Shown here: positions 1-13,210 of the stretch, in pieces
Layout: each line of letters opens with the position of its first letter
Position numbering within the stretch: the first letter of the stretch is position 1
Assembly: GCF_900105495.1 (NCBI RefSeq)
Contig: NZ_FNTF01000002.1
Location: forward strand, 967,501-1,031,500
DNA length: 64,000 nt
Direction of reading: 5' to 3'
Origin: Pseudomonas frederiksbergensis
GTDB lineage: Bacteria; Pseudomonadota; Gammaproteobacteria; Pseudomonadales; Pseudomonadaceae
Notes under the pieces: model-generated
The model's database searches: none
Told to the model about the DNA's origin: nothing
The model's input: the letters and a program-made list of their open reading frames with translations, nothing else
Translations under genes and position numbers: made by a program

Positions 1-34
1 CGCCTTTGTTCACATCCCAATGAGGTGTTACCCG

Positions 35-910
35 ATGCGCGCTTTACTCGTGCTGTTCAGTTTGCTGCTGTCGATGTCGTTGTCTGCGGCGGAAAAACTT
101 CAGGTAGTCACCAGTTTCAGCATCCTCGCCGACATGACCCACCAAGTCGGCGGCGACCATATCCAGATCACCAACATGGTCGGCCCTGATGCCGATGCTC
201 ACACGTACGAGCCGACACCGGACGACGCCAAGGCGTTGCTCAAAGCCAAACTCATCATCAAAAACGGCTTGGGTTTCGAGCCATGGCTGGACCGCCTGGT
301 GACCAGCACCGAGACCCAAGCGCCAGTGATCAGCGCGAGCCGCGGCGTCATCCCGCGCGCCCTGGATGAAGATGGCGAGACGATTCCCGACCCGCACGCC
401 TGGCACAATCTGGCGAACGCTGAGCTGTATATCGGCAACATCACCAAGGCGCTGACCGCCGCCGACCCGACGAATAAAGCCGACTACGAACGCAACAGCC
501 AGGCTTACCTGAAAAAGGTCTACGCGCTGCTTGCCGAAGCCAAGGCCAAACTCGGCTCGCTGCCACCGGGCAATCGCAAAATCGTGACGTCCCATGACGC
601 CTTCGGTTACCTCGGTCAGGCTTACGGTATCGACTTCATGGCGCCTCAAGGCCTGTCCACTGAACGTGAACCGTCAGCCGCCGAAGTCGCTGCACTGATC
701 ACCCAGATTCGCCAGGCCAAGGTCAAAGCGGTGTTCATGGAAAACATCAAGGATGCCCGCCTGCTCAAGCAGATTGCCGATGAAAGCGGCGCGCACATCG
801 GTGGCACGTTGTACTCCGATGCGCTCGCGGCGACCGGTCCGGCCAGCACCTTCATCGGGTTGTTCGAGTACAACCTCAACATCCTGTACAACGCGCTGAG
901 CAAGCCATGA
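35..910 (+). CDS. Metal ABC transporter substrate-binding protein (ZnuA/TroA family)
   Basis: This is a periplasmic cluster A-I metal-binding protein that would deliver Zn or Mn to an ABC permease. An N-terminal signal peptide (about residues 1-18, ending near SLSAA) is followed by the fold's expected ligands: His in DAHTYEP, His in DPHAWH, Glu in the EREPS segment and Asp in YSDAL. This His-His-Glu-Asp set, with no His-rich loop, is closer to Mn/Zn proteins such as PsaA/MntC than to classic ZnuA. I chose the ATG at 35 rather than 20 because GAGGTG lies just upstream and it opens directly with the signal peptide. No permease or ATPase gene is in the window, so its partners may lie to the left. 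Its stop overlaps the next start (ATGA). The neighbours suggest zinc-starvation expression; the metal itself is inferred. Confidence 0.85.
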   Translation: MRALLVLFSLLLSMSLSAAEKLQVVTSFSILADMTHQVGGDHIQITNMVGPDADAHTYEPTPDDAKALLKAKLIIKNGLGFEPWLDRLVTSTETQAPVISASRGVIPRALDEDGETIPDPHAWHNLANAELYIGNITKALTAADPTNKADYERNSQAYLKKVYALLAEAKAKLGSLPPGNRKIVTSHDAFGYLGQAYGIDFMAPQGLSTEREPSAAEVAALITQIRQAKVKAVFMENIKDARLLKQIADESGAHIGGTLYSDALAATGPASTFIGLFEYNLNILYNALSKP

Positions 911-1467
911 TCCGCAAGAACCCTTCCGGTGATTTGCCGGTGATCGCGGAATCTGCCTACGTGGATAAAACCGCCATCATCTGCGGCAAAGTGGTAATCG
1001 GTGAGAACGTCTTCGTCGGCCCTTACGCGGTGATTCGGGCCGACGAAGTAGATGCCTCGGGCGAGATGGAGCCGATCACCATCGGCGCCAACTCGAACAT
1101 CCAGGATGGCGTGGTGATCCACTCCAAGTCCGGGGCGGCAGTGACCATCGGCGAATTCAGTTCCATTGCCCACCGCTCGATCGTTCATGGTCCGTGCAAG
1201 GTTGGCGACCGGGTGTTTATCGGGTTCAACAGCGTGCTGTTCAACTGCGTAGTGGGTGACGGTTGCGTGGTGCGGCACAACTCGGTGGTCGACGGTCGCG
1301 ACCTGCCCGAAGACTTCTATGTGCCCTCCACCACCCGCATCGGCCCGAAGACAGATCTGTCGCAGTTCCCACCGGTGAGCGTCAGCGCCTCGGAGTTTTC
1401 CGAGGACGTGGCGCGCACCAACGTCGATCTGGTGCGCGGCTACAAAGCCCTGCAGAACGAGTTCTGA
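907..1467 (+). CDS. Gamma-carbonic anhydrase-like left-handed beta-helix protein
   Basis: A 186-residue hexapeptide-repeat protein of the gamma-carbonic anhydrase family (CO2/bicarbonate interconversion; many members are uncharacterised). Repeats of the I/V-G-x-N/F type run through about residues 20-140. All three metal-ligand histidines are present: one in NIQDGVVIHS and two in SSIAHRSIVHG. It is therefore not a ligand-free version. Known gamma enzymes can work with iron or cobalt, which would suit zinc shortage, but that is inference here. The start overlaps the preceding stop by 4 nt and the dihydroorotase start follows by 2 nt, so the three genes are an operon. The same gene pair next to dksA2/folE2 is part of the Zur regulon in P. 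aeruginosa (PA5540-PA5541 region). Confidence 0.85.
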   Translation: MIRKNPSGDLPVIAESAYVDKTAIICGKVVIGENVFVGPYAVIRADEVDASGEMEPITIGANSNIQDGVVIHSKSGAAVTIGEFSSIAHRSIVHGPCKVGDRVFIGFNSVLFNCVVGDGCVVRHNSVVDGRDLPEDFYVPSTTRIGPKTDLSQFPPVSVSASEFSEDVARTNVDLVRGYKALQNEF

Positions 1468-1469
1468 CC

Positions 1470-2807
1470 ATGAGCAGTGTGCTGATTCGCAATGCCCGGC
1501 TGGTGAACGAAGGCCGGGAGTTTGACGGTGATCTGTTGGTGAGCAACGGGCGAATCGTGAAGATCGCCAGCAGCATCCACGGCGAAAACGCCGACGTGGA
1601 AATCGATGCCCAAGGGGAATGGCTGCTGCCCGGAATGATCGACGACCAAGTGCACTTCCGCGATCCAGGCTCGCCAGACAAGGGCAGCTTCTACAGCGAA
1701 TCGCGGGCTGCGGTGGCCGGTGGCATCACCAGCTTCATGGACATGCCCAACACCCATCCGGCGACCCTGACCCTCAGCGCATTGGCCGACAAAAAGCATC
1801 GGGCGGCGATCAGCTCTGTCGCCAATTACGGCTTTCATTTCGGCGTGAGCAACGACAATCTCGACACCGTTGCCAGTCTCAATCCCTGTGAAGTTGCCGG
1901 CGTCAAAGTGTTCATGGGTGCTTCCACCGGCAATATGCTGGTGGATGACCCGAGGATTCTCGAGCGGCTATTCGCCGAGGTGCCGACCCTTTTGTTGGCC
2001 CACTGCGAACACACGCCCAGCATCGACGCCAATGCCGCGAACCTGCGTGACTTGTTCGGCGAACACCTTCCAGCGGCGGCCCACCCGCTGATCCGTAACG
2101 CCGAGGCCTGCTTTCGCTCCTCCTCAATGGCGGTAGACCTGGCCAGGCGTCACGGCACCCGACTGCACGTTCTGCACCTGACCACTGCCCGCGAACTGGC
2201 GTTGTTTGAAGACAAGCCGCTGGCCCAGAAACGCATCACCGCCGAAGTCTGTCTGCACCATTTGTTGTTCGATGATCGGGATTACCCGAGCCTCGGCAAC
2301 CTGATCAAGTGCAACCCGGCGATAAAAACCCAGGCCGACCGCGATGCCTTGCGTGAAGCACTGCTGAGCCATCGCCTCGACGTGATAGGCAGCGATCACG
2401 CGCCTCACACCTGGGCTGAAAAACAGAGGCCGTACAGCCAGGCGCCTTCCGGTTTGCCATTGGTGCAGCACGCCCTGCCCGCACTGCTGGAATTGGTCGC
2501 GGATGCGATTGTGCCGATCACTACGCTCGTCGCAAAAACCAGTCACCGGGTTGCCGATCTGTTCGCCATTCCCGACCGCGGTTATCTGCGCGAAGGCTAT
2601 TGGGCTGACCTCGTTATGATCAAACCCGAACCCGGCGGCGTCGCCGTTTCCCAGCAGCCGATCCTGTCTCAATGCGGCTGGACACCTTTTGCCCGACAGC
2701 GTTTTCGCCACAGCGTCAGCACCACGATCGTGTCGGGGCAAATTGCCTGGCACGACCAACGTCTTAATGACAACTGCCAGGGTTTACCCCTACGGTTTAT
2801 GCGCTAG
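1470..2807 (+). CDS. Dihydroorotase paralogue (class I, PyrC-like)
   Basis: This amidohydrolase of 445 residues would interconvert carbamoyl-aspartate and dihydroorotate in pyrimidine synthesis. The start is ATG 1470, 2 nt after the previous stop; an in-frame extension upstream is not coding because it overlaps the carbonic anhydrase gene. Motifs seen: DDQVHFRDPG (residues 58-67), the carboxylatable Lys in KVFMGAS, His in LLAHCEH and LHVLHLT, and Asp in IGSDHAPHT. The usual HxH metal motif reads Q60-V-H62, so one ligand of the buried metal site is replaced; I recall the same QxH variant in other bacterial dihydroorotases. Its position among zinc-starvation genes suggests a low-zinc stand-in for the housekeeping enzyme. 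That it is active is likely but not shown. Confidence 0.85.
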   Translation: MSSVLIRNARLVNEGREFDGDLLVSNGRIVKIASSIHGENADVEIDAQGEWLLPGMIDDQVHFRDPGSPDKGSFYSESRAAVAGGITSFMDMPNTHPATLTLSALADKKHRAAISSVANYGFHFGVSNDNLDTVASLNPCEVAGVKVFMGASTGNMLVDDPRILERLFAEVPTLLLAHCEHTPSIDANAANLRDLFGEHLPAAAHPLIRNAEACFRSSSMAVDLARRHGTRLHVLHLTTARELALFEDKPLAQKRITAEVCLHHLLFDDRDYPSLGNLIKCNPAIKTQADRDALREALLSHRLDVIGSDHAPHTWAEKQRPYSQAPSGLPLVQHALPALLELVADAIVPITTLVAKTSHRVADLFAIPDRGYLREGYWADLVMIKPEPGGVAVSQQPILSQCGWTPFARQRFRHSVSTTIVSGQIAWHDQRLNDNCQGLPLRFMR

Positions 2808-2824
2808 CACTCGGGAGCACCGTC

Positions 2825-3706
2825 ATGATCCACATTACCCTGAGCGATGGTTCACTGCGTGAATACGACCAGCCACTGTCGGTGTACGAGCTCGCCGCAA
2901 GTATCGGACCGGGACTGGCGAAAGCGGCGGTGGCCGGCCGGGTAGACGGCATCCTGGTGGACTGTGAATACATGATCGAAGCCGATGCCCGGGTCAGCAT
3001 CGTCACGCCTCAAGAGCCCGACGGGCTGGAGATCCTGCGACGCTCCTGTGTACTGATGCTGGCCATGGCCGTGAAACAACTCCATCCCCAGGTGCAATTG
3101 CACGCAGGAACGGCGCTGGGCGACGGGTTCTTTCATGAGTTATCTGCCGAGCAACCCTTAACGCGAACAGACCTGCCACTAATCGAAGCCCGTATGCAGA
3201 CGCTGGCGGCGACCAATCACTCGATTCGCCGTCAAGAAAAGACGCCGCTGTACCGCCTGGGGAACGTCGAATCTACGACTGCCGACCCGCATGTTCCCGC
3301 GACCAGAGTGCTGCAAGCGTTCACCCTCGATCACATCAGCAGTACGTTGCCGCAACGGATTTACGGTACGTGCTGGTCCTGCCAACAAGAGCTTGATAAC
3401 TGGCGGACACCGCCACACGTCATGATCGTCAGCATGGACCAACGTCAGGCGGATTACGCGCAGTCGGTAACCGAGGCATTGCGCAGAAGTGGCGTGCGCG
3501 CCCGTGCGGACCTGCGTCACGAGAAAGTCCGCCAAAAAATTCGCGAGCACAGTCGGCACGTGCCGTATCTGCTGGTGATCGGGGAGAAAGAAAAAGTAGG
3601 TAAGTTTGTCAGTGTGCGCAGTCGCGCTGGAGAGGATTTCGGAAGGATGAGCGTTGAGACGGTGTGTGAGTGGTTGAATCAGGCCCGCTCCCACACGGTC
3701 GTGTAG
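2825..3706 (+). CDS. Threonyl-tRNA synthetase-like protein lacking the catalytic core
   Basis: An intact 293-residue ORF, not a pseudogene by appearance, with GGGAG upstream of the ATG. Residues 1-62 are a TGS domain and 66-190 match the ThrRS N2 editing domain up to the QRIYGTCW segment. Residues 196-288 match the C-terminal anticodon-binding domain (VRARADLRHEKVRQKIREH, VPYLLVIGEKE). The roughly 310-residue class II catalytic core, with its three motifs and its zinc site, is missing cleanly at about residues 193-196. Editing-site residues are also lost: the HxxxH pair is R73/L77, and the D-x-C-x3-H motif reads S150, T152, H156. It cannot charge tRNA or edit by the known mechanism. It may still bind tRNA-Thr or the thrS leader. 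It ends the zinc-scarcity operon, 17 nt after the dihydroorotase gene. Confidence 0.85.
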   Translation: MIHITLSDGSLREYDQPLSVYELAASIGPGLAKAAVAGRVDGILVDCEYMIEADARVSIVTPQEPDGLEILRRSCVLMLAMAVKQLHPQVQLHAGTALGDGFFHELSAEQPLTRTDLPLIEARMQTLAATNHSIRRQEKTPLYRLGNVESTTADPHVPATRVLQAFTLDHISSTLPQRIYGTCWSCQQELDNWRTPPHVMIVSMDQRQADYAQSVTEALRRSGVRARADLRHEKVRQKIREHSRHVPYLLVIGEKEKVGKFVSVRSRAGEDFGRMSVETVCEWLNQARSHTVV

Positions 3707-3718
3707 GGCGCGGGCCTG
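3680..3718. terminator. Branched inverted repeat over the end of the ThrRS-like gene
   Basis: A 9-bp stem, CAGGCCCGC (3680-3688) with GCGGGCCTG (3710-3718), encloses a second hairpin, ACACG-GT-CGTGT (3693-3704). It covers the TAG stop of the ThrRS-like gene and sits between convergent genes. There is no strong T-tract, so it may be a degenerate REP-like element or a weak bidirectional terminator. Confidence 0.4.
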
Positions 3719-3729
3719 CTGACGAGTTT

Positions 3730-4251
3730 TTAAGCTCTCGGCTTGACGGTCCCGCAATCCTGCCCCAACCACACGGCGCGGCTTTCGAGGCTACCCTTCT
3801 GCTGAATACCGGTAGCGTTGAACGTGCCGTTAACCTTGGTAGTGAACTCACGATCGCTAAGGAAAGTGGCGACGCCAGCGCCCTGCGCTTTCGGACAGCT
3901 GAAGCGGAATTTCCACTGATTACCGGTGCGGTCGGTGATTTCCTGCTTGCAGCCCGACTGCGGATCGGTCAGCGGAATGTCGTCGGTCTTTACCTGTTCC
4001 GGCGTCAAGCACGCCCGAATCCCTTTACCGCCCATGGTGATGCCCTGTTTTTCGAGCTGCGCGCGCTGCTGAGGGGTCATCTGGCTCTGTATCTGGCCAA
4101 GGATCAGCTGCAAATCCGGGAGGTTCTGGTCATCGACCTTCATGTTGCTTGTGGTCATTTCCCACAAACCGGGCTGCAACATCTGCGCCTGAGCGGCCAC
4201 AGGAAGTGACAAACCAACAGCCATGGCCAAACCCAGCAGACGAACGTTCAT
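3730..4251 (-). CDS. DUF3617 family exported protein
   Basis: A 173-residue protein with a clear signal peptide (about residues 1-22, ending VAAQA). It is followed by the DUF3617 signature PGLWEMTTS, a middle stretch rich in Gln, and two conserved cysteine-containing segments (RACLTPEQV and SGCKQEITD, then FSCPKA and GQDCGTV). These cysteines could form periplasmic disulfides. Function of the family is unknown. It is convergent with the ThrRS-like gene and divergent from cls, with 132 bp to the latter, and appears to be a single-gene unit. Confidence 0.85.
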   Translation of the reverse strand: MNVRLLGLAMAVGLSLPVAAQAQMLQPGLWEMTTSNMKVDDQNLPDLQLILGQIQSQMTPQQRAQLEKQGITMGGKGIRACLTPEQVKTDDIPLTDPQSGCKQEITDRTGNQWKFRFSCPKAQGAGVATFLSDREFTTKVNGTFNATGIQQKGSLESRAVWLGQDCGTVKPRA

Positions 4252-4383
4252 CGAGTAACTCCTGATCAGTTGTGGCCGTTAGACGTCAGCCAGTGGCTTC
4301 GGTTCATGGGCCAATTAAATAGCGACATTCTGCACGGAACATGGTCTGTTAAGCATTGAATCTTCAGGAGCAAGGCATGCCCC

Positions 4384-5823
4384 ATGGATTACTTTGGACC
4401 GCATATTTTCGGCTACATGATTGCACTGCTTCACACGCTGGGCCTGGTCGCTGCCCTCCACGCCGTGCTCACCGTCCGGACCGCCCAGGGATCAATCGCC
4501 TGGGCCCTGTCGTTGGTGTTTATTCCCTACCTCACGCTCATCCCCTATCTGGTCTTCGGCCGCAGCACCTTCGATGGCTACATCAAGGCCCGGCGCCAGG
4601 CCAACGAAGAAATGCGCAAGGCGATCTCCGAACTCAACTGGCGTCCTTGGGTAGAAGAGGCGCTGACCGCTCGCGCCTCAAGTGCCTACGCGTCCTTGAG
4701 GGCCATGCCGAAACTGGGACGGATGCCGTGCCTGGCGAACAACGAAGTGCGTTTGTTGATCGATGGCCAGGCCACCTTCAACGCCATATTTGAAGCCATC
4801 AGCAACGCGAAGGAAGCGGTACTGATTCAGTTTTTCATCATCCACGACGATCGCCTCGGGCAACGCCTGCAAACCTTGCTGCTGAAGAAAGCCGCCGAAG
4901 GCGTGGCGGTTTATTTGTTGTACGACCGCATCGGCAGCCATTCCCTGCCTCACAGTTACGTGCAGCCACTGCGCGATGCCGGCGTCGAAGTCAAAGCCTT
5001 TGCCACCCGCAGTGGCTGGCTCAACCGCTTCCAGGTCAACTTCCGCAACCACCGCAAGATTGTGGTGGTCGATGGAGTGCTGGGTTTCGTCGGTGGGCAC
5101 AATGTCGGCGACGAATACATGGGCGAGAAACCTCCGCTGGCACCGTGGCGCGATACCCATGTGCAAGTCCGCGGGCCAGTGGTGGCCTGCATGCAGGAAT
5201 CTTTTGCCGAAGACTGGTTTTGGGCTGCCCGCTCATTGCCGCCGCTGATTCTGCCGGACGTTTACCCGGACGATGGCGTGCTCTGCCAATTGCTCGCCAG
5301 CGGCCCGGCGGATTCCTACGAAACCTGTTCGTTATTCTTCGTCGAAGCCATCCACGCCGCCACCGAACGAGTGTGGATCACCAGCCCCTATTTCATCCCT
5401 GACGAAGCTGTGTTCGCTGCGTTGCGGCTGGCTGTTCTGCGCGGTGTCGATGTGCGATTGCTCCTGCCCTCACGACCGGACCACCGAATCGTCTACGCCG
5501 CTTCCAGCCTTTATGCCTTCGAAGCCGTGCGCGCCGGTGTGCGGGTGTTCCGCTACGAGCCGGGCTTCCTGCATCAGAAAGTGGTGTTGATCGACAGCGA
5601 AATCAGCGCCATTGGCAGTGCCAATCTGGACAACCGCTCGTTCCGGCTGAATTTTGAAGTGATGTTGTTGACGGTCGACAGCGCCTTTGCCGCCGAAGTA
5701 GAACAGATGCTCAACGATGACTTCGCCCAGGCTCACGAGATTGCCAAAGAAGAAAGCCGGGAGACCCGCCGCCTGCAACAAATCGGCATGCGGGTCGCCC
5801 GGCTTATTTCCCCGATCCTTTAA
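4384..5823 (+). CDS. clsA: Cardiolipin synthase A
   Basis: Condenses two phosphatidylglycerols into cardiolipin plus glycerol at the inner membrane. The 479-residue protein has two N-terminal membrane segments (about residues 5-25 and 35-57) and two phospholipase D HKD motifs. These are [10 protein letters not shown] near residue 222 and [10 protein letters not shown] near residue 397, each followed by the typical [11 protein letters not shown] stretch. The length fits ClsA. AAGG lies 8 nt before the ATG. The TAA stop interlocks with the stop of the convergent cfa-type gene (they share 5821-5822), with no room for a terminator. Confidence 0.92.
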
Positions 5824-7007
5824 GGGTTGTAGATATCGTCTCGCGTCCATGGCAGTTCATGGCTGCCATCGGGGTGGGTTTTTACCGCGAGAATCTGGTG
5901 CAGATTGATCCAGCCCTTGGCGAATGCGTAGGCGCATCCCGCCAGGTACAGCCGCCAGATCCGCAACGCCTGCTCTGGCACCAGCCTGGAAGCCGCTTCC
6001 AGATTGTCTTCCAGGCGTTCGCTCCAATGGTCCAGCGTACGCGCGTAATGCAGGCGCAGACTTTCGACGTCGACAATCTCCAGCCCAGCTTCGCTGATCT
6101 CGGCAGAGATCATCGACAGGTGCGGCAGCTCGCCATTGGGGAACACATACTTCTCGATGAATTCGCCGGCACCGCGCCCCACCGGACGGCCGTCGATGTG
6201 TTTGGCGGTGATCCCGTGGTTCATCACCAGGCCACCCTCCTTCACCGCACCGAACAAGGTCTTGCAGTACTCGGCCAGATTGGCGTGGCCGACGTGTTCG
6301 AACATGCCGACACTGACCACTTTGTCGAAGCGCCCGTCCTGAGGCAGGTCACGGTAGTCCAACAGTTGCAGTTCGATCAGGTCGTCCAGGCCTTCGGCGG
6401 TCACCCGTTCACGGGCGAGTTCCAGTTGCGCTTTACTGAGCGTGATCCCGAATACCTTCGCGCCAAACTCCCGGGCGGCATAGCGTGCCAGCCCGCCCCA
6501 ACCGCAGCCGACATCCAGCAGATATTCCCCCGGTTGCAGCCGCAGCTTGCGGCACAGGTGGCGGAATTTGGCTTGCTGGGCTTGTTCCAGCGTTTCGCTG
6601 CCGGTCTCGAAATAGGCGCAGGAATACGCCATGTCACTGTCGAGCCATAGCTGATAAAACGCGTTGGATAGGTCGTAGTGGTAGGAAATCGCCTTGGCGT
6701 CGGTTTCCTTGTCGTGAACGGTGCGCACCGGCTGACTGTCGTCGTCCTCGCTCACCAGCGCCTGGCTCCATTCATCGCAGACGCGAATCACGTCGCTGAT
6801 GGAGCCTTCCAGCTCAAGTTTACCTTCGACAAACGCCGCTCCGAGCGCGTCCAGGCTTGGGTGAGTGAACTGGGTAACCATTTGTGGGTCCTTGACCACA
6901 ATAGTGACGCTGGGCGTCGGCCCCAGATTGAATTCATGGCCGTCCCAGAGTCGCAGGCGTAACGGTAGCTGCAGATTCTGTAAGGCCGGAGGAAGGTGCG
7001 CGAGCAT
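5820..7007 (-). CDS. cfa: Cyclopropane-fatty-acyl-phospholipid synthase family methyltransferase
   Basis: A SAM-dependent enzyme that methylenates cis double bonds of membrane phospholipid acyl chains, typically in stationary phase. It has 395 residues. The SAM-binding glycine motif [10 protein letters not shown] is at 163-172, preceded by the conserved [15 protein letters not shown] region (about 109-123) and followed by [13 protein letters not shown]. The N-terminal about 90 residues form the usual less conserved lipid-binding part. Several cfa paralogues occur in pseudomonads, so this may not be the main stationary-phase enzyme. Its 3' end interlocks with clsA, a neighbour that also modifies phospholipids. 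Confidence 0.85.
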
Positions 7008-7234
7008 GGAGAGTCCCTCTAGTTTCAGACCGTCTGATGTGAGGGTAGACCATCCTTGAAAAATAGCTGGCTAACGAATTGATCGCCCTTTTCCATGATT
7101 CGTAACGCTCGAACCCACCGTCGCGAATTCACAAAAGTGATTGCCCTCACGTAGATGACTACGAATTCGTCGTACAGTTCTGAAAACTTCAAACCGCCCG
7201 GGATCGCGCTATTTAGAGCATTCACCCGGCGGCC
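7008..7234. other. Intergenic region between the P-type ATPase gene and cfa
   Basis: 227 bp between two minus-strand genes, more AT-rich than its surroundings. It contains a 10-bp palindrome ACGAATTCGT near 7160 and a GTGATTGCCCTCAC imperfect inverted repeat near 7137. It probably holds the cfa promoter. The 66-codon minus-strand ORF here lacks a convincing RBS and family resemblance, and I do not call it. Confidence 0.4.
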
Positions 7235-9145
7235 TCAATCCTCATCCTCAAGCTTGAGCAAGGGTTCCTGAAAACGCAGTAAACGCCCGGCGTTCCCCAA
7301 CACCAGCAGCGTGCTGAAATTGTGCAATAGCGCAGCAATCATCGCACCCGCAGCGCCAAGCCAGCCGAAAGCGGCGAAAGCTACAATCGCCAGCGTCCAG
7401 CCCAGACCGATGATCACGTTAACCTGCAAGGTGTGCCGGCATTGGCGACTCAAGCGCACACACGTGCCGAGTCGACGCAGGTCGCTGCCGATCAGCACGA
7501 TGTCGGCCGAAGCCAGCGCAATGTCCGCCCCGCCTGCGCCCATGGCGACGCCAACCACCCCGGCCTTGAGCGCCAGCGAATCGTTGATCCCGTCTCCCAC
7601 GACCATCGGCCGGAAGCCGCTGCCGATTTCCTTCAGCACGCGATTGAGTTTGTCCTCGGGCAACGCTTGAGCTTCAACGTCGCTGATCCCGACATTACGC
7701 GCCAAGGTGTGTGCGACGCTTTGCCGATCACCTGTCAACAGCAACTGCCGGCCCAACCCCAATTCACGTAGCTCGCTCAAGGCAAATCGAGCCTCGGGTT
7801 TGACGCTGTCAGCCAACAACAACCAGGCAAGGAATTCACCGTTGAGCGCCAGTCCGGCAATCGGGCCATCGTGGTCGGGGACATTTGAAGTGGCGATACC
7901 CAATTGCGCGAATAACTCCGGACGACCGAGCGCCGCCTCGCCCTGCTCCGTCATCGCCACCACGCCCAACCCCTGACGCTCGTGGATGTCGGAGAGCAGC
8001 AGGAAATGTTCCTGGGTGACCAACCCGGCGAGCGCGCGGCTGACCGGATGACTGCTGGCTGAACCGAGGCTGGCAGCGAGTTTAAGGACGTGACTGCGAT
8101 CCTCGAGCGGACTGTCGATGGATTGCAAACGCAAGGTGCCAAAGGTCAGGGTTCCGGTCTTGTCGACCACCAGTGACGTCAGGTCTGCCAACTCTTCGAG
8201 GAACGCGGAGCTGCGAATCAGAATCCCGTGCCGAGCGGCCACCGCCACCCCGGCAATCGCCGTGGCGGGTGCCGACAACACCAGCGCGCAAGGACAGGCC
8301 GCCACTAACACGGCGAGCATGGCCTGGGCATCGTTAGTGACGAACCAGGTCACGGCGGCCAGCAGCAACACCAGCACCATGTAGCTGCCGGCGTAGCGTT
8401 CCAGCAAACGCGTGATCGGTGGTTTGGAACGCTCGGCACTTTGCATCAGCGCGATGACTTTGCCGAGGGTCGACTCATTGCCGGTGCGAGTCACCTCGAT
8501 GCGCAGCAGACCGTCGAGGTTGATCGCGCCGCCGAAGACTTGCATGCCGACGCCCGCCTCCATCGGCACCGATTCGCCAGTAATCGAAGCGGTGTCCAGG
8601 CTCGCCTGACCCGACAACACCCGACCATCCGCCGGCACTCGATCACCTGCGCGCACCTCGACCAGGTCGCCCGCCTTGAGTGTGCCGTTATCGACTTCGA
8701 CGATAGAGCCATCGGCCTGAACTTTGCGCGCGTGGCTGCGCGTCAGTTTGCCGAGGGCGCGAATCGCCTCCTGCGAGCCGATCACGCTGCGCTCTTCCAG
8801 CACGTGACCGAAGATCATGATGATCGGCAGCAACGCCGCGGTCAGCAGATCACCCGTGGCCCACGCCCCGAGCATCGCCAGGGCGATCAACTGATCAGTG
8901 ATCCCGTGCAGGCTCGGGTAACGCAGGCTGTACCAGGCTGAACGCATCACGGGCACGGCGACCAATAACGAAGCAAAGCCCAGCAGCAATTGACTGACGC
9001 CCGTCTGCTCCGGCGACAACCAGCGCCAGGTCAGGCCGAGCGCGAGCAGGCCAAGTGCGAGCATGGCCAAGGTCAACTGGCGGGCGGCGCTGCGTTGTTC
9101 AGCCGAGGACAACATGCTCGGTGCGGCGGCGGTTGGGGTGGTCAT
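7235..9145 (-). CDS. hmtA: P1B-type heavy-metal ATPase, HmtA-like
   Basis: This is a 636-residue P1B-type ATPase. It shows TGES (189-192), the CPC metal motif in TM6 (284-286), the phosphorylated Asp in DKTGT (D328), the SSHPVSRAL motif near 375 and GDGINDS near 520; eight TM segments are predicted. There is no N-terminal GMTCxxC metal-binding domain, and the last TM carries HNFST instead of the Asp of ZntA/CadA pumps. In P. aeruginosa, HmtA (PA2435) is reported to import Zn and Cu and sits beside HflK/HflC-like genes; that matches the operon here. The gene overlaps the upstream SPFH gene by 4 nt. A Zur box upstream of the operon fits uptake rather than export. The family is certain; orthology to HmtA is inferred. 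Confidence 0.8.
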   Translation of the reverse strand: MTTPTAAAPSMLSSAEQRSAARQLTLAMLALGLLALGLTWRWLSPEQTGVSQLLLGFASLLVAVPVMRSAWYSLRYPSLHGITDQLIALAMLGAWATGDLLTAALLPIIMIFGHVLEERSVIGSQEAIRALGKLTRSHARKVQADGSIVEVDNGTLKAGDLVEVRAGDRVPADGRVLSGQASLDTASITGESVPMEAGVGMQVFGGAINLDGLLRIEVTRTGNESTLGKVIALMQSAERSKPPITRLLERYAGSYMVLVLLLAAVTWFVTNDAQAMLAVLVAACPCALVLSAPATAIAGVAVAARHGILIRSSAFLEELADLTSLVVDKTGTLTFGTLRLQSIDSPLEDRSHVLKLAASLGSASSHPVSRALAGLVTQEHFLLLSDIHERQGLGVVAMTEQGEAALGRPELFAQLGIATSNVPDHDGPIAGLALNGEFLAWLLLADSVKPEARFALSELRELGLGRQLLLTGDRQSVAHTLARNVGISDVEAQALPEDKLNRVLKEIGSGFRPMVVGDGINDSLALKAGVVGVAMGAGGADIALASADIVLIGSDLRRLGTCVRLSRQCRHTLQVNVIIGLGWTLAIVAFAAFGWLGAAGAMIAALLHNFSTLLVLGNAGRLLRFQEPLLKLEDED

Positions 9146-10200
9146 TGTGCAGCTCCCTGAATGATCAGGCGGGAATCGTCTTTCGGATTGACCGTGGTCA
9201 CCGAACCGGCCTGACCGAGAATCTTCGGCATCCGCTCGCGATAGATGCGCAGCAGCATTTGCGGGTCGGTCCCTTGTTGTTGCGCCTTGGCCAGGCTCAA
9301 CACCGTGGCCGTGTCCGCCGAGGCTTTGGCCAGCCGTTCGCTCGCTTGGGCGTGAGCGACTTGCAGCGTGCGATCGGCTTGTTCGTTGGCGGTCTGAGTC
9401 AGTTTCTCCGCTTCGGTGCGAGCATTGGCCACGGCTTTGTCGGCTTGTTGACTGGCGGTCAGAACAGCGTTGAAAGCGTTGACCGCGGGCCCGGGCAGAC
9501 TCGATTGCACGTCGACTCGTGCCACTTCAATGCCTAACCCCTGCCCGGTCGCGGTCAGGTCAGCCAGGCGCCGATTGATGCCTTGCACCAGATCACCGCG
9601 TAGCCGTTCGCGCCGTTCGGCAGCCTGTTTATCCGCACCGATGAGTTCTGGGCGCGCCACCAGAATGGTGTCCAGATCTCGTGCGGCAGTGAGGGTCACC
9701 GCGCTGCGAGTCACCAATCGATCCAATGCCGGCAACACATGTTCGCCTTGCAGGACGAAGGCATAGGGCTCGGTGACTTTGTAGAAAACCCGCACATCCA
9801 GTTGCACCACGCCCGCGTCACCGGTGAGCAGATATCCCGAGCCGGCGAGTGCATCGCTGATCGGTGTGGCGAAACTCGCCACTCGGTCTGCCTGCAATGC
9901 TGCATCGGTGCGCAACAGGTTTTCCACCCGACGCTCCATCACCCGATCCGCCGCGGGCAACAAAATCACCTGCTCAAACGGACGGGGCCAGGCCAATAGC
10001 AGACCCGCATTCTGGATGCGATCCAGTGCGCCGAAGTGCAAAACCACCGCGCGATTTTGCGGATCAATCTGCCGCACATTGGAAAATGCCCACACCAAAG
10101 CGGCCAGCACTGTCACGGCATAAAGAGCCAAAAAAGCCAATCGCCCCGCCTGAATCCAGGGACTGCTTAACTCGTTTGTTCCACGTGGAACTAATTTCAT
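9142..10200 (-). CDS. SPFH/band-7 protein, HflK-like
   Basis: This 352-residue protein has one N-terminal TM (about residues 18-42), then an SPFH domain (about 45-230) and an Ala/Gln/Lys-rich helical coiled-coil tail (about 230-310). Such proteins form oligomeric membrane rings. True HflK/HflC regulate the FtsH protease; here the genomic partner is a metal ATPase, so a scaffold or quality-control role for that transporter is inferred. It is the third gene of a four-gene operon with 4-nt overlaps on both sides. A near-perfect parS site lies in its first codons and encodes LVPRGT. Confidence 0.8.
   Translation of the reverse strand: MKLVPRGTNELSSPWIQAGRLAFLALYAVTVLAALVWAFSNVRQIDPQNRAVVLHFGALDRIQNAGLLLAWPRPFEQVILLPAADRVMERRVENLLRTDAALQADRVASFATPISDALAGSGYLLTGDAGVVQLDVRVFYKVTEPYAFVLQGEHVLPALDRLVTRSAVTLTAARDLDTILVARPELIGADKQAAERRERLRGDLVQGINRRLADLTATGQGLGIEVARVDVQSSLPGPAVNAFNAVLTASQQADKAVANARTEAEKLTQTANEQADRTLQVAHAQASERLAKASADTATVLSLAKAQQQGTDPQMLLRIYRERMPKILGQAGSVTTVNPKDDSRLIIQGAAQ
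10177..10192. other. parS centromere-like site (15/16)
   Basis: TGTTCCACGTGGAACT matches the ParB-binding palindrome TGTTCCACGTGGAACA at 15 of 16 positions. It lies in the 5' codons of the HflK-like gene, about 34 kb left of oriC. Confidence 0.85.
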
Positions 10201-11231
10201 GGCTGCGACCCGGACTTGTTATCGAGGGTCGGCGGACCGTCAACCAACACCCGGAACGGCGCGGCGTCCGTGCGCAGAATCAGTTTTGTGCCGGGCGTGA
10301 CGATCGTGCCTAGTGTGTCGAGGGAGCGCAGCAGGTTGTAGAGCTGTGGCGATCCGGCGTAGGCACGACCGTAAATTTGTGCGGCTTCGACGCGCGATTG
10401 CGCTTCAATATCGGCCGCTTTCACCGTCGCATCGGCTTGTACGATTCGTGCATCACGCTCGGCGGCAGAACGGATTTGCGCCGCTTCGCGCTTGCCGATG
10501 GCTGTGCGTTCGGTGGCGATTGTTTCACGCTCGGCACGCATGCGATCAACCGTAGCGGTGAGGGTTACCGACGGCAAGGTCAGACGCTCGATGCCGACTT
10601 GCAGCACCCGCACGCCGTAAGTGGTGAGTAGCTGCTGATCGATTTGCTGACGCAACTGCGCTTCAAAGTCAGCGATGCGTACTTGGTTGGCGTCAGTGTT
10701 CACCAGGTTAGCCAGATCAAAACTGCTGGCCGTGGTTTCCAGCGCCGACCCCACAAACGTGCGAATCTGCCGCGCGGCTTCGTCTGGCTGATTCTGTACG
10801 GCGCGCATGAAGCGTTGCACGTTGTCCGGATCGCCCTGAACCTGCCAGGCCACATAAGCCTGAACGATGATGCGCAAACCGTCCCGCGTACCCACGTCCT
10901 GTAAACCACTCGAGGTCGTGCGCAGTCGCAGATCGACAGGAATCGCCGCTTCAAAAGGAGCAGGCCAGCGCCAGCCAAGACCTGGTTCCAGCAATACCCG
11001 CGACGGATTACCGAAACGCGTGATCACCGTGGCCTCCCCCGAACGCACTTGAACCAGGCTCGCCGCCGCGATGGCGAACGCCACCAGCAACGCTGCCCAG
11101 CCCATTCGCCGCCATGGGAACGGGCCCGCTTCCTGGGGATCACCGTGGTGGTGATGGCCGTGATGATGTCCGCCATGACCGTGATCGTGGCCAGTGTGGT
11201 CATCGTGATCGTGAGTGTGCGACTGGCTCAA
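10197..11231 (-). CDS. SPFH/band-7 protein, HflC-like, with His-rich N-terminus
   Basis: This 344-residue protein starts with a very His-rich cytoplasmic segment (residues 3-31, alternating His with Asp/Gly). One TM follows (about 44-62), then an SPFH domain (about 65-245) and a helical tail. The His-rich segment is not a normal HflC feature and could bind zinc or another transition metal. It is operon position 2, overlapping both neighbours by 4 nt. The high C-terminal Ala/Glu content fits the coiled coil expected for ring assembly. Role in metal sensing, storage or delivery to the ATPase is inference. Confidence 0.8.
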   Translation of the reverse strand: MSQSHTHDHDDHTGHDHGHGGHHHGHHHHGDPQEAGPFPWRRMGWAALLVAFAIAAASLVQVRSGEATVITRFGNPSRVLLEPGLGWRWPAPFEAAIPVDLRLRTTSSGLQDVGTRDGLRIIVQAYVAWQVQGDPDNVQRFMRAVQNQPDEAARQIRTFVGSALETTASSFDLANLVNTDANQVRIADFEAQLRQQIDQQLLTTYGVRVLQVGIERLTLPSVTLTATVDRMRAERETIATERTAIGKREAAQIRSAAERDARIVQADATVKAADIEAQSRVEAAQIYGRAYAGSPQLYNLLRSLDTLGTIVTPGTKLILRTDAAPFRVLVDGPPTLDNKSGSQP

Positions 11232-13210
11232 TTGGCAGCTCCTGGCTGAGCGGTTTTACGCGCCGGCGCCGGATCAGCCGGCAGCGTGAAGGTACGGAGG
11301 TCAATGGTCGGCGCGTTACTGCTGCCGCCCAGGCGATGATCGAGCACCAGCGATTTGGCATTGGCCAAGCCCTGGGACAGTTGACTCAAGTACTGCTCCA
11401 GCACGAAGGCCTGGCCGGCGCTGGCGTAGGCTTTTTGCTCGGCACTGAATTTCAGGTCAGCCGCTTGGGCGGTGGCGTTGATTTCACGTGCGCTGGCCGT
11501 CGCTTGATCGCGAGCGATGCTGGCCTGCAATTGCGCCTGGTTGGTGGCTTGCGCCGCCGCCCCACGCTCGCGGGAAATCAATGCCTGGGCGCCAATCTGC
11601 GCAGCCTGGACGCCGTGATAAGCATTGGCGGCACGGGCCGGCGGATGAATCGCCTCGACCACGGTGGCGAGAATTTCCACGCCGCTGTCGAGTTTGTGCA
11701 GGTCAGCCTGTACCGCCCGGCCAATCTCTTCGGCGAGCCCGACCCTGTCCGCGCCGAGCAAACCGTCGAGGGTACGCGAGGCGAAATCGTGGACCAGAAT
11801 CCGGCTGGCGGTGCTGCGAATCAGCGTCGGGACATCGGCACTGTTGTAGGTCGCCGCCAACGCCGCTTGATCGCTCAGGCCGATGCGGTAGACGAAACGC
11901 ACGTCCATGTTGACGATCTGGAAGCTCTGCTTGTCGGCTCGACTGCTGGCGATAACCTGGGATTTGTCATTCACATGGCTCGCGTCCCACAAGCGATTGG
12001 CAATCGCGGGCGCCGGGCCTTCAGCGGGATCGGCCACGACCGGCGCCGGTGTGTCGCCCACACTGGTGGCCAACTCGTGGACCACACCGTTCTCGACGCT
12101 CAACACTCGGCCCAACGGCCAAGGCAAACCTGCGTGCAAACCGGGACCGAACACCTCCACCGGTTTGCCGAATCGCTCGTAGATGCCCCGCCCTTGCATG
12201 GGGATTTCGTGAATGCCGGTAAGTGACCAGCCCACTATCGAAACCACGGCCAGCACCGGCAAAAAAGCCCGACGCATGTAGGTGAAAGCCCAGATCTGTC
12301 GCAGGTCGATGCCGAAGCGGTTGTGCAATTCGTGCTGCAATGCCAGCAAAGGTTGCGGCGGCCAGCGCAGCATGTCGGCGACGAAGCTGCGCGCCAGCAA
12401 CGCCGGTTCGAGTTGTTCGCGCTGCGGGCTGAACAATGACAGCATCGCGCGCAGCAGCAGCTCGGCGGCGACCAACCCTGGTAGCAAACCCATCAGTACC
12501 GCCAGACGCACCGGCCAGACCGAGGTTTCGCTCCCAAGCAACAGGCACAAAGCGCTGAGCACCAGACCAATGATCGCCACTCGAGTCAGCTGCGCCAGCG
12601 ACGCTGCTTCGGGCCACTGGGCGGCGTTTTCCTGTGCCAGTTGTCGCTCCAACACCAACAAACCGAAAGCCAGCAACAAGGACAGCGCTGCACCGACACT
12701 GGCCGACACTCCCAGTGCGGCTGGCGGCAGTGCAAGGTTCCAGACCTGTTCGATGCTCACCAACGTCAACAGCGACCAACCCGCGAGCCACAGTGTCGGC
12801 GCGCCGATCTGCACCAGCATTCGCAACCATCGCTGGCTGAGCCTATCCAGCAGCCGTTCGTACCAACCCACCGGGGCAACGACTTCGTCAGCAACGACAA
12901 CCTGCACCACTGGGTTCAATGCCCGCGCACGCCACTGCGTCACCCACCAGGCCGATTGCAAACCGGCGACCAGCACCAGCAAACCGGCGCTCTGATTGAC
13001 CAGCAACGCGGGCCACAGGGACTGTGGCGCAAACAACCCAACAAAAAACGCCAGCAACCAACCAATTACCGCCAGAGCGCCGAGACCGATTGCGAACTGA
13101 CGCAATCGCCGCCCTTGAAAAACCGCCTGCTGGAAACGCGGCAGCCCGGCTACTTGCGTCCCATCGACATCGAGATCGACTTGCATACCACCCCAGTTAT
13201 CGTTGCTCAT
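11228..13210 (-). CDS. Large polytopic membrane protein with C-terminal SPFH domain (HflK-like)
   Basis: This 660-residue protein has an N-terminal half with about six hydrophobic segments (between residues 38 and 245) and another TM near 315-335. An SPFH/HflK-like domain (about 340-560) and an Ala/Gln-rich helical tail follow. The first gene of the metal operon. The start may be codon 9 (ATG at 13186), which has a GGGGTGG sequence just before it; the ATG at 13210 has no clear ribosome binding site and lies only 5-10 nt from the Zur-like box. The fusion of a multi-TM domain to an SPFH domain is unlike HflK itself. I cannot assign a molecular function. Confidence 0.75.
   Translation of the reverse strand: MSNDNWGGMQVDLDVDGTQVAGLPRFQQAVFQGRRLRQFAIGLGALAVIGWLLAFFVGLFAPQSLWPALLVNQSAGLLVLVAGLQSAWWVTQWRARALNPVVQVVVADEVVAPVGWYERLLDRLSQRWLRMLVQIGAPTLWLAGWSLLTLVSIEQVWNLALPPAALGVSASVGAALSLLLAFGLLVLERQLAQENAAQWPEAASLAQLTRVAIIGLVLSALCLLLGSETSVWPVRLAVLMGLLPGLVAAELLLRAMLSLFSPQREQLEPALLARSFVADMLRWPPQPLLALQHELHNRFGIDLRQIWAFTYMRRAFLPVLAVVSIVGWSLTGIHEIPMQGRGIYERFGKPVEVFGPGLHAGLPWPLGRVLSVENGVVHELATSVGDTPAPVVADPAEGPAPAIANRLWDASHVNDKSQVIASSRADKQSFQIVNMDVRFVYRIGLSDQAALAATYNSADVPTLIRSTASRILVHDFASRTLDGLLGADRVGLAEEIGRAVQADLHKLDSGVEILATVVEAIHPPARAANAYHGVQAAQIGAQALISRERGAAAQATNQAQLQASIARDQATASAREINATAQAADLKFSAEQKAYASAGQAFVLEQYLSQLSQGLANAKSLVLDHRLGGSSNAPTIDLRTFTLPADPAPARKTAQPGAAN

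Follow-up and report, generated by a model that had tools for sequence, protein, structure and literature searches.

The window analyzed here is a 64,000-nucleotide stretch of the genome of Pseudomonas frederiksbergensis (RefSeq assembly GCF_900105495.1, contig NZ_FNTF01000002.1, positions 967,501 to 1,031,500). The genes at its start, all on the plus strand, encode a ZnuA-like zinc-binding ABC component (20..910; Pfam ZnuA, E 1.9e-83); a gamma-class carbonic anhydrase-like protein with hexapeptide repeats (907..1467), for which the best NCBIfam models, CcmM and carbonic anhydrase, both scored below their cut-offs; dihydroorotase PyrC2 (1470..2807; NF006688, 700.7 bits, cut-off 535); and, starting 17 bases beyond the end of pyrC2, a 293-amino acid ORF (2825..3706), a paralog of threonyl-tRNA synthetase (ThrRS) that lacks the catalytic core and is denoted here the coreless protein. 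An earlier note on this DNA had placed the ORF at the end of an operon of zinc-scarcity paralogs, a description that is right for the part of the operon inside the window. Just upstream of the window, on the same strand of the same genome, Pfam identifies folE2 and an ABC ATPase; in the same stretch lies a membrane-protein gene that, judging from its position and appearance, we take for the permease. Divergent from the folE2 operon are a COG0523 (cobW/yciC-type) gene and a DUF1826 gene, and two Zur-like palindromes are visible by eye in the divergent intergenic region. No promoter or terminator patterns were found in window positions 2600-4400, and nothing in positions 1-12000 matched Rfam at E up to 1. 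A P-type ATPase gene (7235-9145) and a Band 7 protein gene (9142-10200), both on the minus strand, lie downstream of the operon.

The gene order (folE2, pyrC2, yciC and znu genes) and the Zur-like box characterize the cluster as a putative Zur-type operon. Among the 56 coreless loci of the one-genome-per-species scan described below, 50 have, in the 260-base region preceding folE2, a Zur-like box that deviates from a 19-letter consensus at no more than 4 positions, mostly 49 bases ahead of the folE2 start codon. In a control of 50 shuffles per region that kept base composition only, the mean was about 8 mismatches and the per-locus minimum ranged from 4 to 7; in L036 and L037, the best shuffle equals the 4 mismatches observed. 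The box has more than 4 mismatches in five loci where folE2 is present (L022, L029, L031, L038, L049), and L034 has no folE2 match. The Zur box is covered, together with folE2, pyrC2 and the carbonic anhydrase gene, in a review of Pseudomonas zinc homeostasis whose main text mentions neither tRNA nor thrS (PMC10393844); a review of Zur gives thrS2 for Anabaena, with none in the rows for P. aeruginosa and P. protegens (PMC6103462).

The coreless protein consists of a TGS domain (residues 1-63, 2825..3013; Pfam TGS at 2-61), a remnant of the N2 editing domain (residues 64-190, 3014..3394) and an anticodon-binding domain (residues 193-287, 3401..3685), all encoded on the plus strand. Pfam at E up to 1 detects TGS and HGTP_anticodon (199-285) and no other domain; the editing-domain signature, tRNA_SAD, is matched by 11 of the 20 coreless proteins scanned. 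Pairwise comparison matches residues 4-137 to the same positions of E. coli ThrRS and residues 192-287 to 535-631. Multiple alignment with E. coli thrS (L137) sets the join between residue 192 (E. coli 231) and residue 193 (E. coli 536), at 3398..3403, so that the protein is ThrRS 1-231 (gapped) fused to 536 onward in E. coli numbering, and the 304 residues of the catalytic core (E. coli 232-535) are gone. The earlier description of a 293-residue ORF with TGS and anticodon domains and the core removed is thus borne out, whereas its figures, about 310 residues skipped and a join at residues 193-196, give way to these. The editing domain has lost a further 30 residues, K156 among them, and 9 more are missing, including W206-G208. 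Alignment also confirms that, as had been read from the sequence, R73, L77, S150 and T152 replace H73, H77, D180 and C182. On the survival of H186 (as H156) and on these extra losses, the earlier note was silent. In the anticodon-binding domain, R240, E256 and R265 are the counterparts of E. coli R583, E600 and R609, which we take to be anticodon-contacting residues, and H232 stands in place of N575, presumably near the anticodon site. With 98.8 bits, the protein falls below the cut-off of the ThrRS equivalog TIGR00418 (383.65); by descent it belongs to the ThrRS superfamily, with the TGS and HGTP anticodon domains in the ThrRS order and a place in the ThrRS phylogeny.

The one-genome-per-species scan, which is sensitive to close relatives only, detected 56 coreless loci, all titled Pseudomonas. 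In a survey of 398 genomes of the genus, the coreless gene was found in at least 55, counting that of the window. At least 16 genomes (group A) encode a full-length second ThrRS (ThrRS2) with an N-terminal part that shares 61-69% identity with the coreless protein, and at least 10 (group B) a more distant full-length ThrRS2 with 51-56% identity; for the housekeeping ThrRS of the window's genome, identity over the N-terminal part is 48%. These numbers are lower bounds because at most six candidates were scored per genome; the counts were made by eye, and part of the loci of the 55 genomes were fetched singly. In 54 of the 55 genomes, there is one main match, with an open frame of 293-373 codons, and in the remaining one (G108), a split match lies inside a single 324-aa ORF. 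Some genomes, such as G025, G122, G134 and G157, have 4 matches and possibly encode further ThrRS outside the Zur operon. Among the matches listed for 369 gammaproteobacterial genomes, no coreless ThrRS was recognized outside Pseudomonas; a few short frames in this set, for example in G715 and G501, are probably truncated where contigs end. In a profile search, the readable organism names among the matches listed (120 of 215) are all Pseudomonas except for one compost metagenome, one name being incomplete; among another set of matches listed (120 of 324 relatives), all proteins are 284-338 aa long and contain the TGS and anticodon domains. The search for homologs with the same missing core, suggested in the earlier note, thus yielded 79 distinct coreless proteins, a conserved family and not a sequencing gap. 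A published description of this coreless family was not found in the open-licence literature searched.

The 79 proteins (272-324 aa, 52-99% identical to the 293-aa protein) represent 94 coreless sequences; a locus with a frame break (L058) and a piece of a housekeeping gene (L003) were removed before the protein counts. They were aligned with 38 full-length references, namely 16 group-A, 10 group-B and 12 housekeeping ThrRS, one of the latter from E. coli. The class II catalytic core is absent throughout the coreless family: the zinc ligands C334, H385 and H511 and the catalytic residues are present in 38/38 full-length proteins and in 0/79 coreless ones, in agreement with the earlier claim that the core with the essential zinc is deleted. 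A new zinc site at C183/C186 was considered and ruled out, the second cysteine being unconserved (S in L029 and L118). H73 is replaced by R in all 79 proteins and H77 by L in 75 and by S in 4; K156 is lost in 78 and C182 in 75, being retained in just 4, while H186 survives in 75. By sequence, the editing site is dead. All 79 proteins retain R583, E600 and R609 of the anticodon domain, and 76 retain K577; N575 is kept in 54 and is H in 19, including the 293-aa protein. E584 occurs in every one of the 38 full-length proteins but in only 34 coreless ones. Given the changes at N575 and E584, specificity may have drifted. Among the residues invariant in the 38 full-length proteins, those kept in at least 90% of the coreless ones number 15 of 18 in TGS, 18 of 25 in the anticodon domain and 23 of 45 in the N2 editing domain.

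A tree built on the shared columns unites all coreless proteins in a single clade (UFBoot 100), nested among the group-A full-length ThrRS2 (support 97). DUF3617 and phospholipase D-like genes follow the coreless gene in all 65 fetched loci besides the window's own, and the same pair follows ThrRS2 in 16/16 group-A loci, whereas both are found in 0/10 group-B loci. Because coreless and group-A loci share these downstream genes, the core was evidently lost in place. Most simply, the coreless gene would have originated by a single in-frame loss of the core in the ancestor of some Pseudomonas lineages. Of the four members compared, the 293-aa protein, L120 (52% identical) and L105 share the 231/536 join, and L123 has 226/541; L105 looks like a likely intermediate because it still contains a stretch of the editing domain that is missing from the other coreless proteins. 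The zinc ligands are kept by the ThrRS2 of both groups (16/16 A, 10/10 B), so the coreless protein, having a parent that retains them, is no simple zinc-free replacement paralog. This parent, a full-length ThrRS2 with zinc ligands in the same slot, was missing from the earlier account. In L102, about 2.7 kb (6287-8967) separate pyrC2 from the full-length ThrRS2, compared with some 30-60 bases in its relatives.

In 12 loci (L014, L016, L022, L027, L036, L037, L039, L040, L041, L044, L059, L119), representing partly dependent events, no matches to znuCBA, carbonic anhydrase and pyrC2 are left, and 110-221 bases separate folE2 from the coreless gene behind it; L038 is similar, with a partial folE2 match, and would be a thirteenth. 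Inspection by eye suggests that, in L014, L016, L022, L036, L039 and L041, a sequence resembling the end of pyrC2 persists roughly 90 bases ahead of the coreless gene, the rest of pyrC2 being lost; this remnant may mark where a deletion ended or belong to the translation signal of the coreless gene.

The coreless genes evolve under purifying selection. By pairwise counting, the pooled omega (dN/dS) for 35 non-overlapping pairs is 0.109, with a whole-gene maximum of 0.23, and the individual domains give 0.094 (TGS), 0.121 (editing remnant) and 0.102 (anticodon domain). For the housekeeping ThrRS (5 pairs), the corresponding values are 0.081, 0.034 and 0.057, with 0.05 overall; the coreless omega is about twice as high, which indicates weaker constraint than on the housekeeping enzyme. 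Compared with the group-A parents, a small sample of only 6 pairs with values of 0.203, 0.084 and 0.227, constraint has moved from the editing part to both end domains. The single frame-broken copy in the 56 loci is that at 10001-10895 of L058.

The thrS leaders of 11 Pseudomonas genomes share a nearly invariant 3' stretch with two possible hairpins. Hairpin 2, GTGACC TTTGGTAGG GGTCAC, lies just 5' of the ribosome-binding site and is part of the predicted best fold of all 11 leaders, with a 3-base GGU loop and the flanking bases paired; we read it, via a U-G closing pair, as a potential anticodon-like 7-base loop, U-U-GGU-A-G. Hairpin 1, located upstream (CCTGCC-xCTGTxx-GGCAGG), has a UGU-containing 7-base loop and is absent from the fold predicted as best for L126, L128 and L130. 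At the same position as hairpin 2, the E. coli thrS leader contains GTGATC TTTCGTGTG GGTCAC, which folds with a 7-base loop and which we identify, from sequence and position, as the probable operator domain II. E. coli ThrRS has been reported to bind anticodon-like hairpins of the thrS leader and to exclude the 30S subunit (PMC11088916, PMC3858243). In the window's genome, the thrS leader occupies positions 2258-2373 of the thrS locus (L107), and its hairpin resembles the E. coli operator. Both Rfam matches in this locus are on the opposite strand, with none in the leader. A cspA thermoregulator-like Rfam match at 1141-1541 of L107, on the minus strand, scores 71 bits, below the gathering score of 78.

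A search for the hairpin pattern in 369 gammaproteobacterial genomes, allowing at most 2 mismatches, matched 38 genomes, against 3 for the reversed control. Among the 30 loci returned from the 38 matching genomes (L142-L171), the hairpin lies 9-48 bases before thrS in 29, and L155 has none. L156 has two tandem operator-like hairpins before thrS, at positions 1464 and 1501 of the reverse complement. Stem pairs vary among the 20 distinct hairpins: C-G in 16 and T-A in 4; G-C in 19 and C-G in 1; G-T in 12, A-T in 7 and A-C in 1. All four letters occur as the first base of the anticodon-like triplet; the search pattern fixed its G and T, whose conservation therefore carries no weight. Genomes without the coreless gene, in Pseudomonas and in other genera, conserve the hairpin too; by this comparison, it is older than the coreless protein and not specific to it. 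For the coreless protein, the window's genome offers a candidate RNA target in the thrS leader.

Zinc sparing is usually explained by the swap of a zinc protein for a zinc-free one. A zinc-independent (C-minus) replacement takes over the function of the zinc enzyme, of which the coreless protein appears incapable, having no catalytic domain; the earlier contention that it cannot replace ThrRS is supported. The whole catalytic domain has been lost, yet selection is strong, and zinc starvation would therefore require some other role of a ThrRS, be it the binding of RNA, the binding of ribosomes or a partnership with other subunits. Sequence comparison shows the architecture of the coreless protein, a common origin within the locus, strong purifying selection, and the disappearance of zinc, catalytic and editing residues from a chain that still has its TGS and anticodon domains. 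These data give good support to a non-catalytic protein that derives from ThrRS, belongs to a Zur-type operon and is maintained by selection; rather than being a broken gene, it probably serves as a regulator that binds RNA.

Our preferred reading, to which we give a probability of roughly 0.4, is that the coreless protein is a non-catalytic RNA-binding protein induced by zinc starvation and acting on tRNA-Thr and/or the thrS operator. Because the anticodon domain was kept, binding to tRNA-Thr-type hairpins is the best inference, and a tRNA-Thr or thrS-leader ligand fits both the retained anticodon-domain residues and the operator-like hairpin. Production would begin when zinc runs short and Zur leaves the operon. 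Through an anticodon-binding domain that would still recognize hairpins of the NGU anticodon type, the protein would bind tRNA-Thr, one or more anticodon-like hairpins in the thrS leader, or both, and would adjust the synthesis of ThrRS or the use of tRNA-Thr while ThrRS, a zinc enzyme, is short of metal. By analogy with E. coli, we propose that the coreless protein represses thrS: in this favored form, the anticodon domain would grip the hairpin on the mRNA, and the N-terminal domains would provide bulk against the 30S subunit. Repression would reduce the demand for the zinc enzyme, although the direction of the effect is a guess. More doubtful is the strict version, a repressor-only synthetase, in which a ThrRS2 of the zinc operon has turned into a zinc-starvation-induced translational regulator that throttles ThrRS through the thrS operator and/or tRNA-Thr; if true, it would spare zinc by lowering demand and not by providing a zinc-free substitute. 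The thrS leader is a ready RNA target for testing, and, because related species still have full-length, likely intermediate (L105) and coreless forms at a single locus, the transition from enzyme to non-enzyme can be tested step by step as well.

The dimer core of E. coli ThrRS comprises the catalytic and anticodon domains, and one tRNA contacts both monomers (PMC11088916); by analogy, a lone anticodon domain without such a core may bind weakly. Retention of the anticodon domain, one part of that core, is also compatible with a partner of the housekeeping ThrRS, perhaps of its zinc-free monomers, which the coreless protein would inhibit or stabilize in a variation on the Anabaena T1/T2 mixed dimers, where low zinc dissociates T1 and T2 is able to pair with T1 (PMC4787780). 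However, a partner without the catalytic contribution to the interface, and with an editing site that its sequence marks as dead, would supply neither synthesis nor trans-editing, and we consider this role unlikely.

A ribosome-associated zinc-starvation factor, similar to mL39 and no longer reading anticodons, seems to us distinctly improbable. A Foldseek search with the first predicted model retrieved six mitoribosome chains over 223-238 columns with TM of 0.43-0.47, two of them (4ce4_c and 4v1a_c) named mL39 and the other four assigned to mL39 from their chain labels; the family profile matches mL39 at E 0.022 over residues 39-175, and mL39 sits around the exit-tunnel region (PMC5203842). 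With a second predicted model (L123), however, mL39 is not in the Foldseek top 50; the sequence match is weak and stops short of the anticodon domain, and a ribosomal role has no obvious need for the conserved residues of that domain. No text linking mL39 to ThrRS was found in the literature searched.

A free-standing trans-editing factor for mischarged tRNA-Thr, comparable to the archaeal ThrRS-ed, would likewise be a core-free ThrRS relative with an anticodon domain, and NF011500 (Ser-tRNA(Thr) hydrolase) does match residues 189-285 at 1.3e-7; but this match covers the anticodon domain only, with 30.9 bits against a cut-off of 362, and the editing residues are gone (H73 and H77 in 79/79, K156 in 78, C182 in 75), and this very improbable role is rejected. 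A decaying ThrRS2 remnant carried along in the operon, to which the frame break in 1 of 56 loci, the varying losses in the editing domain and an omega about twice that of the housekeeping ThrRS might point, is ruled out by selection and distribution and hardly credible: instead of uniformly full-length homologs and relaxed selection, by which the earlier note would have recognized a decayed fragment, there are 79 intact, distinct coreless proteins with an omega of 0.11 over 35 pairs, none above 0.23, and the gene was retained behind folE2 in 12 loci (13 with L038) after its neighbors had left.

Among the known systems closest to the coreless protein is the group-A ThrRS2, which occupies the same operon slot (16/16), has the 61-69% identical N-terminal part (16/16) and includes the coreless clade in its midst. 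The group-B ThrRS2 likewise lies behind pyrC2, but the same two downstream genes are never both present. Unlike the coreless protein, the ThrRS2 of both groups are 629-650 aa long and possess every zinc, catalytic and editing residue inspected. In the account of Haas et al. (2009), the ThrRS paralogs of Zur regulons keep the zinc residues, no coreless form is named, and no ThrRS appears in the Zur regulon of P. fluorescens (PMC2770081, section 10). Anabaena T2 is also a ThrRS paralog, induced by low zinc and impaired in proofreading (PMC4787780), but it is an active full synthetase, whereas the coreless protein has no catalytic domain. mL39 resembles the coreless protein as a ThrRS-like chain without the catalytic core, with a predicted fold match of TM up to 0.47; it is, however, a mitochondrial ribosomal protein that is only weakly similar in sequence. 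The archaeal ThrRS-ed shares the core-free design, but its editing domain, a structural homolog of DTD, works in editing (PMC7373986), whereas the bacterial editing residues are gone from the coreless protein. The principle proposed for the coreless protein is that by which E. coli ThrRS represses thrS, an anticodon domain acting on leader hairpins (PMC11088916); the E. coli repressor, however, is the full dimeric enzyme, whereas the coreless protein is a putative dedicated non-enzyme under zinc control.
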